Source: Granulicella sp. dw_53 | GTDB taxonomy: Bacteria; Acidobacteriota; Terriglobia; Terriglobales; Acidobacteriaceae | Assembly: GCF_018449545.1 (NCBI RefSeq) | Contig: NZ_JAAVUR010000003.1 | Coordinates: 434,001 to 498,000 of the forward strand | Direction: 5' to 3' | DNA length: 64,000 nucleotides | In this document: positions 840 through 34,205 of the stretch, piece after piece | Numbering within the stretch: the first letter of the stretch is position 1 | How the letters are laid out: each line of letters begins with the position of its first letter | Position numbers and translations under genes: made by a program | The notes under the pieces: generated by a model | The model's database searches: none | Seen by the model: the letters and a program-made list of their open reading frames with translations, nothing else | What the model was told of the DNA's origin: nothing

Positions 840-927
840 CCAAAACCTCGGTCCGAATTGGATACGACGCTAGCCCTGGAAACCCTGCAAATTGAGATAC
901 TCCTAGATAAAAGATGCGAATCTCCCA

Positions 928-1228
928 GCAAAACAGCATGTCAAGCTCCTTAAGCTGCTAAACCCAGAAGATCCAACCACTTCCATGTGGCACTTTAGTT
1001 TTCGACGCCTGACTATAATTGAAGTAGAAGAGAAAACCCAACGGCTGCACAGGCGGAAGCCTTGCAGCCGTTGCATTTAACCGAACTATCGAAAGGAGGC
1101 CCTAACCCACGCTGGCTGACGTATTTGGACATAAGCCATTTGCAATCAACGAGCTAGCGACACTCGCGTCCTCTAACTCGATAGAACTAAACCACTTACG
1201 CCCAAATACCCCCAAGGGGGGTGGGGGG
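928..1228 (+). repeat. Structured intergenic element, copy A (candidate ncRNA or repeat family)
   Basis: Homologous to copy B at 33079-33340 in the same relative orientation. Shared parts in order are GCAAAA..GC.TGTCAAGC (928), CATGTGGCAC-T-TTAGTTTT (984-1002), a -10 hexamer TATAAT at 1014-1019 (30 nt after the start of CATGTGGCAC, the same offset as in B), a GAGAAA-AC stretch, a hairpin, GCTGAC..TATTTGGAC (1115-1130), TTGCAAT, TTA.GCCCA and a C/G-run end (1207-1228). The copy A hairpin has perfect 11-bp arms CAACGGCTGCA (1039-1049) and TGCAGCCGTTG (1063-1073). In this copy the element fills the gap before ribD, so it could act as ribD promoter and leader. Nothing else is seen in 840-1268. 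Function unknown. Confidence 0.75.
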
Positions 1229-1268: not shown

Positions 1269-2420
1269 ATGGTCGACGCAGCACAAGACGAACGCTTCAT
1301 GCAGCGAGCCCTGACCCTGGCCCAAAAGAGCATCGGTCTAGCCTCCCCGAACCCGCAGGTAGGTTGTGTCCTCACCGCCGGCGGGACAATCATCGGCGAA
1401 GGCGCTCACATCTACGACAACCGCGACCACGCCGAGATCGCCGCCCTCAAGCAAGCCGCCAGCCGCGGCATCAGCGTAGTAGGCGCAACCGCCTACGTCA
1501 CCTTGGAACCGTGCTCCCACCAGGGCCGAACCGGCCCCTGCGCCGACGCCCTCATCGCCGCCCGCATCGGCCGCTGCGTCGTCGCTACCCGCGACCCCAA
1601 CCCTCTGGTCAGCGGCCGCGGCATCTCCAAGCTCCGCGACGCAGGCATCGAAGTCACCGTCGGAGTCCTCCAGCAGCAGGCTCGCGACCTCGACGATCCC
1701 TTCGCCCACTTCATCCAGCACCATCGCCCCTTCGTCACCCTCAAAGCTGCCCTCTCCGTCGACGGCTACCTCGCTCCACCGCCCACCAACCGCCTCCCCG
1801 ACCAGCCCCACTGGATCACCGGCTCCGCAGCCCGTCACGAGGTCCAACGCCTCCGCCACGCCTCCGACGCCATCCTCACCGGAATCGGCACCGTCCTAGC
1901 CGACGACCCAGCTCTCACCGACCGCTCCACACTCCCCCGCCGGCGCCCCCTCCTCCGCGTCATCCTCGACTCCCAACTCCGCACCCCACTCACCGCGAAG
2001 CTCCTCCACCCAGCCAGCCAGGACCTCCTCATCCTCCACGCCGCCTCAGCACCCACCCAAAAGATCGAAGCACTGCAATCCGCCGGAGCCGAACTCAGCG
2101 CAATCGAAACCGAAAACGGCCACCTCAGCCTCCCCGCCGTCCTCGCCGCCTTGGCCGAGCGCAACATCCTTAGCCTCCTCCTCGAAGCCGGATCTCACCT
2201 CAACGGAGCCTTCCTCACCCAGAACCTGGTCGACAAAGTCGTTCTCTTCTACGGCGAGACCGAACTAGGCGCAGGAGCAATCCCCTTCGCCCAAGGCATA
2301 GACTCACCCTTCCTCTTCCAGCAAACCCTCCACCGCCAAACCCAAACACCCTTCGGCCCAGACGCCCAGATCACCGGCTACATCCATGATCCCTGGCCAA
2401 ACGAGCCTGCCAAACCCTGA
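1269..2420 (+). CDS. ribD: Bifunctional riboflavin biosynthesis deaminase/reductase RibD
   Basis: A 383-residue cytosolic enzyme. It deaminates 2,5-diamino-6-ribosylamino-pyrimidinone 5'-phosphate and then reduces the ribosyl side chain with NADPH (steps 2 and 3 of riboflavin synthesis from GTP). The N-terminal deaminase domain (about 8-150) has the zinc motif HAEI and PCSHQGRTGPC. The C-terminal reductase domain (about 155-375) begins RPFVTLKAALSVDGYLA and has LTGIGTVLADDPALTDR. Length is normal for the bifunctional form. The start is ATG with GGAAGGG about 12 nt upstream. It converges with ribE, with only 8 bp between the stops. No FMN riboswitch signature was seen upstream; element A occupies that gap. 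Confidence 0.95.
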   Translation: MVDAAQDERFMQRALTLAQKSIGLASPNPQVGCVLTAGGTIIGEGAHIYDNRDHAEIAALKQAASRGISVVGATAYVTLEPCSHQGRTGPCADALIAARIGRCVVATRDPNPLVSGRGISKLRDAGIEVTVGVLQQQARDLDDPFAHFIQHHRPFVTLKAALSVDGYLAPPPTNRLPDQPHWITGSAARHEVQRLRHASDAILTGIGTVLADDPALTDRSTLPRRRPLLRVILDSQLRTPLTAKLLHPASQDLLILHAASAPTQKIEALQSAGAELSAIETENGHLSLPAVLAALAERNILSLLLEAGSHLNGAFLTQNLVDKVVLFYGETELGAGAIPFAQGIDSPFLFQQTLHRQTQTPFGPDAQITGYIHDPWPNEPAKP

Positions 2421-31352: not shown

Positions 31353-32816
31353 ATGGCGACAGCAACGATCGATAAGGCAGCATTGGATGGAGTAGCGAAA
31401 GAGTACAAGGTTGCGGATATCAGCCTGGCTGAGTTTGGCCGCCGCGAGATCGACATCGCCGAGCAGGAGATGCCGGGCCTGATGTCCATCCGCAACAAGT
31501 ACGCCGCGGGCAAGCCGCTGGCCGGTGTGCGCGTCACAGGCTCGCTCCACATGACCATCCAGACCGCCGTGTTGATCGAGACCATGGTCGCCCTGGGCGC
31601 CGACGTCCGCTGGGCAAGCTGCAACATCTTCTCCACCCAGGATCACGCCGCAGCGGCCATCGCCGCAGCCGGCGTCCCCGTCTTCGCCTGGAAGGGCGAG
31701 ACCCTCGAAGAGTTCTGGTGGTGCACCAACCAGTCGCTGAACTTCCCTGATGGCAAGGGCGGCCTGCTCGGACCCCAGCTCGTCATCGACGACGGTGGCG
31801 ACGTCACCCTCCTCATTCACAAGGGCGTCGAGATGGAGAAGGGCGACAACTGGGTCAACTCTCCCTCCAGCTCCACCGAAGAGGACGTCATCAAGTCCCT
31901 CCTCAAGAAGGTTCACGCCGACTTCCCCACCCGCTGGCAGGATGTCGCCAAGGGCTGGCGCGGCGTCTCCGAGGAGACCACCACCGGCGTCCATCGCCTC
32001 TACAAGATGCTGGAGAAGGGCACCCTGCTCGTCCCCGCCATCAACGTCAACGACTCCGTCACCAAGTCCAAGTTCGATAACCTCTACGGCTGCCGCGAGT
32101 CGCTCGTCGACGGCATCAAGCGCGCCACCGATGTCATGATCGCCGGCAAGGTCGCCGTCGTATGCGGCTACGGCGATGTAGGCAAGGGCTCTGCGGCTTC
32201 GCTCCGCGGCCTCGGCGCTCGCGTCATCGTCACCGAGATCGATCCCATCAACGCCCTGCAGGCCTCGATGGAAGGCTACGAAGTCACGACCCTCGAAGAG
32301 ACTCTGGGCCGCGGCGATATCTACGTCACCTGCACCGGCAACGTGGACATCATCACCGTCGAGCACATGAAGCTGATGAAGGATCAGGCCATCGTCTGCA
32401 ACATCGGTCACTTCGACAACGAGATCCAGATGGAGCCGTTGAACGCCCTGGTCGGCAAGGACGTCACCAAGCTCAACATCAAGCCCCAGGTCGACAAGTA
32501 CACCTTCAAGACCGGCAACAGCATCTTCGTCCTGGCGGAAGGACGCCTGGTCAACCTCGGCTGCGCGACCGGCCACCCCAGCTTCGTGATGTCGAACAGC
32601 TTCTCCAACCAGACGCTGGCGCAGCTCGACCTCTGGGCCAACAAGGACAAGTACGAGATCGGCATCTACATCCTGCCCAAGAAACTGGATGAAGAGGTCG
32701 CCCGCCTGCACCTCGAGAAGATCGGCGTAAAGCTGACCACCCTCTCCACCAAGCAGGCCAACTACCTGAGCGTCCCGGTCGAAGGCCCCTACAAGGCCGA
32801 GCACTACCGCTACTAA
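31353..32816 (+). CDS. ahcY: Adenosylhomocysteinase (SAH hydrolase)
   Basis: A 487-residue NAD-dependent enzyme that splits S-adenosylhomocysteine to adenosine and homocysteine, keeping SAM-dependent methylation running. Motifs: [20 protein letters not shown], the catalytic Lys/Asp/Asn region [13 protein letters not shown], the NAD-binding [20 protein letters not shown], and the conserved C-terminus YKAEHYRY. The insert near residue 155-195 makes it the long, bacterial/plant-like form. AATTGAGG precedes the ATG. A strong terminator follows at 32835. Confidence 0.96.
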
Positions 32817-32870: not shown

Positions 32871-33078
32871 CTTTCCCTCCAACCAAACACTCCCAACCAG
32901 CCACCGCTCCCCTCCCAATACTCGAACCCGCCACAAAAGCGGGTGCCCCATCCTTTTTGCAGTCTCATCGCAATAGGGCGGGGTATCGGGCGAAGCCCGA
33001 CCGCTCTCCTCCTCCAGCCTCTCAACCAGCCAATCCCACGCTCTACCCGGCCCTAACTTTTTCTTCGCAAAAACCTCA

Positions 33079-33340
33079 GCAAAATCGCGTGTCAAGCCCC
33101 CAAACCACCTAACTCCTTGATAAGGATAGATATACATGTGGCACGTTAGTTTTGGTCAATCCCTTAAAATAGAAACTAGAGAGAAAGACAACAGGTCAGT
33201 CTTACCATGTGTCAGCTAAGTCCATAGCTGACACATATTTGGACGCAACTCCAATAGTTGCAATATTTTGGCAATGGAGCCCGTGGCTATTCGACTGAAA
33301 AAACTACGGTTATGCCCAGGCAAGGGGGCACCCCCCCAAC
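33079..33340 (+). repeat. Structured intergenic element, copy B (candidate ncRNA or repeat family)
   Basis: Homologous to copy A (928-1228). Shared blocks: GCAAAA..GC.TGTCAAGC (33079), CATGTGGCAC-G-TTAGTTTT (33135-33153), a -10 TAAAAT at 33165-33170 (offset 30 from the box, as in A), GAGAAA-GAC, GCTGAC..TATTTGGAC (33227-33244), TTGCAAT, TTATGCCCA and a G5/C7 end (33324-33338). The hairpin has perfect 12-bp arms at 33207-33218 and 33225-33236 with a 6-nt loop. The copy lies between ahcY (+) and a DUF4397 gene (-), so no plus-strand gene follows for about 870 nt. That argues for an independent RNA or mobile repeat. The rest of the 32817-33380 gap is the ahcY terminator and unremarkable GC-rich sequence. 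Confidence 0.75.
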
Positions 33341-33380: not shown

Positions 33381-34157
33381 CTAGCTGGTCGCGGTAGGAG
33401 AGTCGTAGTCCGCCGCAGTGATCACCTGCAGGCCCGGCGTGTTCACCAGCTGCTGGTCGATCAGCACGATCGTACGGGCGCAGCCAGCCGAGTAGGTAAC
33501 CTGAGCCCCGGTATACGTCGCGACGGTCGTAGAGTTGGGAACGGTTCCAGTAGGCACCAGAACCAGGGTGTAAGCGCCGGTAGGAACATTCAGGTAGCCG
33601 GTATTGCCGGAGAAGTTGAAGTTGGTAATCAGCGGCGTCACCGCCGTAATCTTCTGCCCCGCAGGCACAAGATAGATATCGAGCCCGCCGACCCGTGTCG
33701 CCTCGCCGATAAACCGCAACGCGACCTGGCCGGAGGGCGCTGCCTGGCTCTGATCCTTGAGAATCGTCTCCGTGAGGCTGGCCGAGACATTGCCCACCAG
33801 AACGGTGTACTGGGCCGAAGAGACGAAGGTTCCCTTGGCGCTGCTCATCACCTGGGCGGTTCCAGCCGACTTGGCGAAGACCGTATAGATCCCTGCGTCG
33901 AGCGGGACATACGAGGTGATGGTGCCGAAGCCGAGGTTGTATACCAGCGGAGCCGCATTCAGATACATGTCTAATCCCGGCGCGTCCGGTGAGGTGACGA
34001 TAACTCGAGCCTGCGACATCACAGGACTGCTCACGATGCCCTGGCAACCCAACATGGCCCCGAGAGACACGGTCGCCGACGCGACCCGCAGCATCCGATG
34101 GACGAGAGGACGCGTGCTAACCGGATCGAAGGGCCAGCGCGTCTTAGAAAGAGGCAT
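33381..34157 (-). CDS. DUF4397 domain lipoprotein
   Basis: About 258 residues. A hydrophobic stretch ending LGAMLGC resembles a lipobox with Cys about 37 residues from the start. Two DUF4397 repeats (immunoglobulin-like) follow: the first from ARVIVTSPDAPGLDMYLNAA, the second from VALRFIGEATRVGGLDIYLV. The family is secreted and often surface-attached; function unknown. Start uncertain: ATG 34157 or GTG 34178, neither with a strong Shine-Dalgarno. Divergent from the LssY_C protein at 34206 (about 30-50 bp), so their promoters overlap. Confidence 0.75.
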   Translation of the reverse strand: MPLSKTRWPFDPVSTRPLVHRMLRVASATVSLGAMLGCQGIVSSPVMSQARVIVTSPDAPGLDMYLNAAPLVYNLGFGTITSYVPLDAGIYTVFAKSAGTAQVMSSAKGTFVSSAQYTVLVGNVSASLTETILKDQSQAAPSGQVALRFIGEATRVGGLDIYLVPAGQKITAVTPLITNFNFSGNTGYLNVPTGAYTLVLVPTGTVPNSTTVATYTGAQVTYSAGCARTIVLIDQQLVNTPGLQVITAADYDSPTATS

Positions 34158-34205
34158 CCATTGGGATGTGGGTTCCACTAAGAGCTACTCTACCCGATCC
34201 AAGGC

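Follow-up and report, generated by a model that had tools for sequence, protein, structure and literature searches.

Two similar intergenic stretches lie within the 64,000 nucleotides of Granulicella sp. dw_53 analyzed here (the window), one (copy A) directly ahead of ribD and the other (copy B) facing a convergent gene at its stop codon, and they raise the question of what such a pair is and where it comes from. An earlier reading of the letters alone (the sequence-only reading) took them for two homologous intergenic elements, too orderly to be chance and therefore either a transcribed RNA or a defined repeat family. The homology was confirmed and had been understated: A and B are 2 of at least 145 copies in the genome, and many more occur in relatives, as expected of a defined repeat family. 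Comparison among these copies showed the unit to be the predicted promoter-plus-leader of genes for one small zinc-knuckle protein, for which we coined the label CRHI, with A and B two of the at least 145 dispersed copies. That the unit is a transcribed RNA is plausible from its -10-like hexamer, enriched hairpin, and covarying tail.

Table 1. Positions of the two element copies, their parts, and the adjacent genes in the window.
Feature	Position	Strand	Basis
Copy A of element	about 919..1228	+	Head-model match at C23:434924-435042; CRHI-A-type tail
Copy B of element	about 33075..33337	+	Head-model match at C23:467076-467191; CRHI-A-type tail
TGTCAAGC box, copy A	939..946	+	Sequence; core of best-conserved block in 129 copies
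TGTCAAGC box, copy B	33090..33097	+	Sequence
CATGTGGCACTTTAGTTTT box (19-mer CATGTGGCAC(T/G)TTAGTTTT), copy A	984..1002	+	Genome-wide 19-mer search
CATGTGGCACGTTAGTTTT box (19-mer CATGTGGCAC(T/G)TTAGTTTT), copy B	33135..33153	+	Genome-wide 19-mer search
-10-like TATAAT, copy A	1014..1019	+	Sequence; consensus in family, TAAAAT
-10-like TAAAAT, copy B	33165..33170	+	Sequence
Hairpin 1, copy A (11-bp perfect arms, 1039-1049/1063-1073)	1039..1073	+	Script, fold, repeat search
Hairpin, copy B (12-bp perfect arms, 33207-33218/33225-33236)	33207..33236	+	Script, fold (z -3.89), repeat search
Degenerate long palindrome, copy A	1121..1209	+	Repeat-search arms; family-level covariation
Degenerate long palindrome, copy B	33236..33323	+	70% of long-stem positions pair (alignment row L002)
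C/G-run 3' end, copy A	1209..1228	+	Conservation drops sharply past G run, 125 copies
G/C-run 3' end, copy B	33324..33337	+	Sequence; same family-wide conservation drop
ribD, immediately 3' of copy A	1269..2420	+	Pfam RibD_C 1.2e-37, deaminase domain 4.9e-21
S-adenosylhomocysteine hydrolase gene, upstream of copy B	31353..32816	+	Pfam AdoHcyase 4.7e-148
DUF4397 gene, convergent to copy B	33381..34178	-	Pfam DUF4397 7.2e-31

The ordered blocks that the sequence-only reading had listed were all found in both copies where it had placed them. The -10-like hexamer begins 26 nt past the T of TGGCAC in A and B, bearing out the claim of an identical offset, and the perfect hairpin arms were recovered independently by a script and a repeat search. 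Of the distances given from the TATTTGGAC motif to the G/C run, 86 and 88 nt, the one for copy B holds (88 nt to the first G run, from a block start at 33236), while in copy A, where the block starts at 1122, we count 87 nt, close to the stated 86, to the C run beginning at 1209 and 94 nt to the first G run. Because the two hairpins occupy different positions, starting 14 nt (copy A) versus 31 nt (copy B) into a common 75-nt search region, they are not one hairpin, and the compensatory change read between them is unsupported for this pair; compensatory change appears instead in a long tail palindrome absent from that reading. The right arm of the copy B hairpin extends onto the first base of the TATTTGGAC block. 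At the base of the copy A palindrome, two 15-nt arms (1121-1135 and 1195-1209) are 87% complementary; the repeat search gave no such arms in copy B, and the long stem did not form when either copy was folded alone (z -0.13 for copy B).

Candidate noncoding RNAs from Acidobacteria, Acido-1 and Acido-Lenti-1 (PMC2864571), had been suggested for comparison, but neither they nor any other Rfam family reached the gathering score across the window, and neither of the two appeared near the copies at E ≤ 10. A consensus sigma-70 promoter (TTGACA, 16-18 nt, TATAAT) was absent from copies A and B, which have the -10-like hexamer only; neither copy has more terminator-like sites than its shuffles, a search of both for terminal inverted repeats of at least 9 nt found none, and no CRHI gene adjoins either one in the window. 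A sigma-54 promoter, whose motif is TGGCAC, 5 nt, and TTGC with GC at -12, was considered and rejected: the -12 GC is missing, and in copies A and B and the 91 genome sites of the 19-mer, TTGC does not stand at that spacing after TGGCAC, the sequence there usually being TTTT, TTAT, TTTC, or TTTG.

The size of the family is a first argument for a leader. A sequence-only head model (R1, the first ~120 bp, built on 25 copies) found 145 copies in this genome at E ≤ 0.01, a lower bound given that 150 of 791 first-look candidates were scored. The 19-mer, allowing up to three mismatches, has 91 sites in the genome against 4 for the pattern read backwards, which upholds the claim that the order is not chance; 30 of these sites were fetched, one of which (L020), having none of the other blocks, was excluded. 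A profile of the alignment behind R1 marked 130 heads in 929 kb of this genome. Together the copies define a unit of about 300 bp consisting of an upstream box, the -10-like hexamer, often a hairpin, a degenerate palindrome, and a sharp G/C-run end. Conservation begins about 20 nt ahead of TGTCAAGC, is best in the head, and stops abruptly past the G run; the tail, from TATTTGG to the G run, is exactly 88 nt long in 51 of the 91 copies having both. Just after TGTCAAG (window positions 946-966 and their equivalents), 129 copies average 45% C and 5% G over 20 nt, and this C-rich, G-poor stretch resembles a Rho-binding site for the upstream gene.

Two features of the head region also favor a leader. 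Hairpin 1, scored at 9 or higher, occurs in 57/129 copies and in 2/129 shuffled ones, with a sequence that varies from copy to copy. The box consensus is typical of the lineage, with four forms in five genomes (those of G014 and G057 are nearly alike), and each form is common to most copies of its genome (10 copies in G015, 15 in G057). Such a shared lineage form speaks for a trans-acting reader or for homogenization. The tail was initially read as tandem units of about 29 nt, a reading dropped as the main one; upstream of ribD in one relative (G059, locus L163, about 1300-1480), three similar units of about 30 nt with AAGACTTTRC precede the G run, as if that tail were a tandem array.

The link to a gene comes from two copies in the analyzed DNA that directly precede genes of the same small protein, CRHI, marked by a C-R-H...C...C-x2-H knuckle and with LLYGLQ(L/I)AS conserved at its end. 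At both CRHI genes found here the unit lies upstream, 133 and 179 nt away as measured to the head end, and runs up to a G/C run just ahead of the gene start; the other dispersed copies analyzed in this genome have no CRHI gene behind them. A single-sequence search gave two or three CRHI matches per genome in five genomes, two of them in this genome, and a profile found the gene in 52/60 genomes of the genus, with up to 13 matches in one. A head model built from this genome alone placed the head upstream of 23 of 30 genus CRHI loci at E ≤ 1e-3, a count that includes this genome's own leader, on which the model was partly built, and one borderline match; a wider model, trained on some of the same genomes, raised it to 26/30. 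Among CRHI loci of named records, partly from the same genomes, 39/59 had the head (59 of 62 had enough upstream DNA), and several of those without a head match still end in a G run. In other genera of the family the head was found at 6/9 CRHI loci; its absence at those of G150, G280, and G301 counts against a leader role, and the G320 match was weak (1.9e-5) and lacked the usual tail.

At some loci an alternative short promoter-like form was seen, consisting of CTTGACA, 7 nt, and then TATAAT, TATACT, or TAGGAT; it lies upstream of CRHI at L408 (G042) and L407 (G150) and upstream of ribD at L187, and a similar form occurs in L396 (G009). Its first part, CTTGACA, is the reverse complement of TGTCAAG, and its spacing falls short of what a normal sigma-70 promoter requires.

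For CRHI itself, no Pfam family scored above cutoff (DUF5763 and a primase zinc finger were weak), NCBIfam and PHROGs gave no family match, and the best PDB sequences, two MCM10 chains, were not significant (E 0.56 and 0.63). A first AlphaFold model was poor (pLDDT 54); one made from 45 sequences was fairly confident (pLDDT 86, pTM 0.69), and no PDB fold matched it at E ≤ 0.001. That CRHI binds nucleic acids is guessed from its zinc knuckle.

If the dispersed copies derive from CRHI leaders, their tails should look like leader tails from elsewhere, and they do. Models of 13 CRHI-A and 16 CRHI-B leaders, all from other genomes, matched 111/129 tails with scores of at least 8 bits (77 favoring the A model, 34 the B model), or 109/127 once this genome's two CRHI leaders are set aside, and matched 0/129 shuffled and 0/129 reversed control tails even at 5 bits. 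Both copies in the window fall clearly on the A side: the leader-A and leader-B models gave 35.6 and 6.1 bits for the tail of copy A and 34.6 and 4.8 bits for that of copy B. The split is blurred in the family, 23 of the 34 B-assigned tails also bearing an A-type end motif, perhaps an effect of hairpin 1 being part of the B model. On this evidence from sequence models, the dispersed copies are to be regarded as orphan CRHI leaders.

The same tails carry the long palindrome, which emerged on comparing whole anti-diagonals, one of which stood out per alignment. In 25 CRHI leaders, 70.2% of long-stem cells pair, against 30-40% when the stem is slid, with covariation of 0.242 against at most 0.105 for controls; in 49 dispersed copies (alignment A2), 62.0% pair against 31-41%, with covariation of 0.171 against at most 0.097. 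Both pairing fractions favor a leader, and both are to be read knowing that the stem was chosen on the alignments in which it was counted, so that the slid controls lean in its favor, and that the A2 rows are 49 of 60 correctly spaced tails selected for length and fit. None of 500 shuffles reached the CRHI leaders on any of five measures. For A2, three of the five exceeded all shuffles, but pairs-with-change and pair-types were reached by 154 and 112 of 500, which tells against a leader, as does the finding that RNAalifold gave no consensus structure for either alignment. A mutual-information scan did not exceed its null (best value 22.6, against null maxima that averaged 19.2 and went up to 25.3). 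Folded singly, 13/25 CRHI leaders and 11/49 dispersed copies formed at least half of the long stem (mean z -3.78 versus -1.27). In the family as a whole the tail palindrome is genuine, and many dispersed copies, A and B among them, carry it in decayed form. Compensatory base changes are present in it, in a structure picked on the same alignments, and a DNA palindrome would give the same signal as a structured RNA.

Elements and CRHI also travel together across genomes. The head model R1 had matches in 23/41 genomes, this one included, all within the genus. In a genus sample with up to 59 candidates scored per genome, which caps the counts, elements were found in 53/60 genomes, so that the refuting case of no further copies in related genomes did not arise; 49 genomes had both elements and CRHI, 4 elements only, 3 CRHI only, and 4 neither (p 0.004, ignoring shared ancestry). 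In a class sample, with up to 11 candidates scored per genome and stricter filters under which weak matches are lost, elements occurred in at least 33/299 genomes, in 4/106 genera, all of one family (f1). CRHI was present in 62 class genomes, the class samples scanned for elements and for CRHI comprising the same genomes wherever listed, and in 32 of the 33 element-bearing ones, an association in favor of a leader (Fisher p 1e-24, again ignoring shared ancestry). Evidence of the opposite kind came from 30 of the 62 CRHI genomes without element matches, from one genome (G269) with element matches in which no CRHI was found, and from 4 of the 53 element-bearing genomes of the genus that lack CRHI. 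Copy number within the genus runs from 0 to at least 145. CRHI itself is expanded in G009 (13 matches) and G011 (11), where element matches number only 24 and 7.

Where the copies sit limits what they can do. With genes called by our own simple gene finder, 0/130 heads lay inside a called gene, and a few copies overlapped a gene end. The next downstream gene is on the opposite strand for 80/129 copies, the context of copy B (its DUF4397 neighbor stops, with TAG, about 43 nt past the copy) and the commonest one. Only 49/129 copies are directed toward a gene on their own strand, which rules out a leader role as the general one. The median distance from the end of the G run to an opposing stop codon is 23.5 nt (n = 78), a closeness that fits the leader account, and to a same-strand start it is 92 nt (n = 47). 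For two relatives, 27/44 and 10/18 copies are followed by an opposed gene, and opposing genes end within 17 nt in 12/27 (G014) and 7/10 (G021), three copies without a G run excluded. The abutting convergent genes of this genome end in TAG in 55/78 cases versus 226/634 for other genes, an excess not clearly repeated in G014 (13/27 versus 69/190) or G021 (4/10 versus 34/94). For ribD, the neighbor of copy A, the head stands just upstream in 9 of 29 other loci, the top 29 among 56 other genomes in which ribD was matched, which speaks for a leader there; eight of the nine heads were found at E ≤ 1.1e-5 and one at 0.038, with ribD identity of 73-79%. A tail-like remnant was seen, by eye only, at two ribD loci (L163 and L187).

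From these observations we infer how the copies spread and what they do, and we give a probability of about 0.55 to the following account. RNA would start just past the -10-like hexamer and would meet, in turn, the terminator-like hairpin, the long stem-loop, and the G/C run; as a leader, it would attenuate CRHI and other genes behind it, such as ribD, while stand-alone copies would act as promoter-terminator modules at the 3' ends of convergent genes. Less firmly, the copies may have come from CRHI leaders that were duplicated, either slowly or in past bursts, and a trans-acting factor, either CRHI itself or another factor that reads the box, may keep them recognizable, an upkeep we propose because the copies of a lineage share its typical box form. 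In autoregulatory attenuator leaders a promoter, an early hairpin, a second structure, and a ribosome site precede the gene. The CRHI leader follows that order with its promoter-like head, early hairpin, second structure, and then ribosome site and gene, and it differs from such leaders in having more than 100 orphan copies in one genome.

A more ambitious and distinctly less probable version would make the protein and the repeats one separately invented two-part system, in which a zinc-knuckle protein without a fold relative sustains copies of its own promoter-leader much as RAYTs are paired with REPINs. The two copy types would then follow two paralogous genes, with a box form for each lineage, and copies would settle at gene 3' ends, some of them being co-opted as housekeeping leaders, as for ribD. 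As described in PMC3116915 and PMC3733652, REPINs likewise are many intergenic palindrome-bearing copies, mostly beside gene 3' ends, of several types that each occur near a specific gene, and they differ in being 20-40 bp palindromes or doublets, where the present unit is about 300 bp long with a promoter-like head. Our copies do cluster downstream of genes, in convergent or codirectional gaps. Yet the gene here encodes an unrelated small zinc-knuckle protein whose own leader is the unit. The unit has one long degenerate palindrome, unlike paired REP doublets; no GTAG-tagged inverted doublet of REP palindromes was seen by eye in conserved columns, and a rough search of the loci analyzed found no motif like that of a RAYT (Y1 HUH transposase). 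RAYTs can occur without REPINs.

A plain mobile element, REPIN- or MITE-like, nonautonomous, and moved in trans by CRHI or an unseen transposase, with any regulation incidental, is an unlikely competitor. The range of copy number within the genus, the absence of heads from genes, the sharp 3' end, the near restriction of elements to genomes with CRHI, and the resemblance of the tails to leaders of two CRHI types would all suit it, as would the wealth of copies in convergent gaps: gaps with one of the 125 copies having a G run were 50 convergent, 18 divergent, and 57 codirectional, whereas gaps of at least 150 nt without a copy, taken as background from the same neighborhoods, were 20, 68, and 117. 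Against it stand the lack of terminal inverted repeats in copies A and B, the lack of any transposase family match for CRHI in the databases searched, and a target-site duplication no more frequent than chance for k = 6 to 9 in 125 copies. Correia repeat enclosed elements of Neisseria are likewise short intergenic repeats with promoter- or terminator-like signals, and they have terminal inverted repeats and a TA target duplication, neither of which was found here.

Close pairs of genomes also weigh against recent mobility, since neither of the two pairs compared showed an empty site or a fresh insertion. In one pair (G057 and G164, with about 99% identity across 12 loci), 46 of 49 copies paired by script and 48 after correction by hand. 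For the unpaired copy of G164 a weak partner exists in G057; for the unpaired copy of G057, the tail is present in both genomes, the head only in G057. This one-sided head (L491 versus L492) precedes a gene that we take from its sequence to be pyrE-like. In the other pair (G014 and G234), 15/15 copies whose region was located are common to both; for the other fetched G014 copies no region aligned. For this genome, the best full-length ribD match in a relative is 78% identical, too distant for an empty-site search.

It is more doubtful still that the head is the promoter or operator of a single transcription or sigma factor, with copies retained by selection on their neighbors. The head is the best-conserved part and the copies of a lineage share their changes in the box, as a regulon would predict, and among 35 same-strand genes within 160 nt downstream, ten familiar-looking ones picked by eye are gltX, ilvC, purA, guaB, ddl, rpsU, lepB, gmd, a nicotinamidase gene, and one for an agmatine deiminase-like protein. 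Compared with 65 copies of G014 and G021, the copies here share 13 orthologous nearest downstream genes, two of them encoding CRHI and all 13 with the orientation preserved, against 2 upstream-upstream and 7 crossed nearest pairs. But nine further genes (for a dehydrogenase, a glycosyltransferase, a deacetylase, DUF2461, an HSP70-like protein, a uracil-DNA glycosylase-like protein, DUF1015, a transporter, and an XdhC-like protein) have no pathway in common with the ten; most copies are oriented toward the 3' end of a convergent neighbor, numbers swing from none to at least 145 among relatives, and a promoter alone does not account for tails that match CRHI leaders. Least probable is that each copy encodes its own trans-acting small RNA ending at hairpin 1, for although many copies have the -10-like hexamer and then a hairpin, and the 55 stems of at least 7 bp are preceded by 59% A and followed by 37% T, the hairpin sequences differ between copies and terminator-like sites do not exceed shuffles in copy A or B.

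A literature search, judged by titles and abstract openings and with subscription journals mostly outside it, gave no description of this leader-repeat family; REP counts for Granulicella aggregans are tabulated in PMC12306157. DNA that controls a gene appears to have turned into a repeat family spread across the genome. To our knowledge, gene-linked bacterial repeat families are known mainly from RAYT/REPIN, and if our account is true, Acidobacteriota would hold a second one, made of unrelated parts, in which the spreading unit itself carries the promoter-like head and leader structure. Software that searches these genomes for promoter motifs may detect a repeat family, and the system offers a testable partner protein, CRHI, together with more than 100 natural copies in one genome for the study of leaders.
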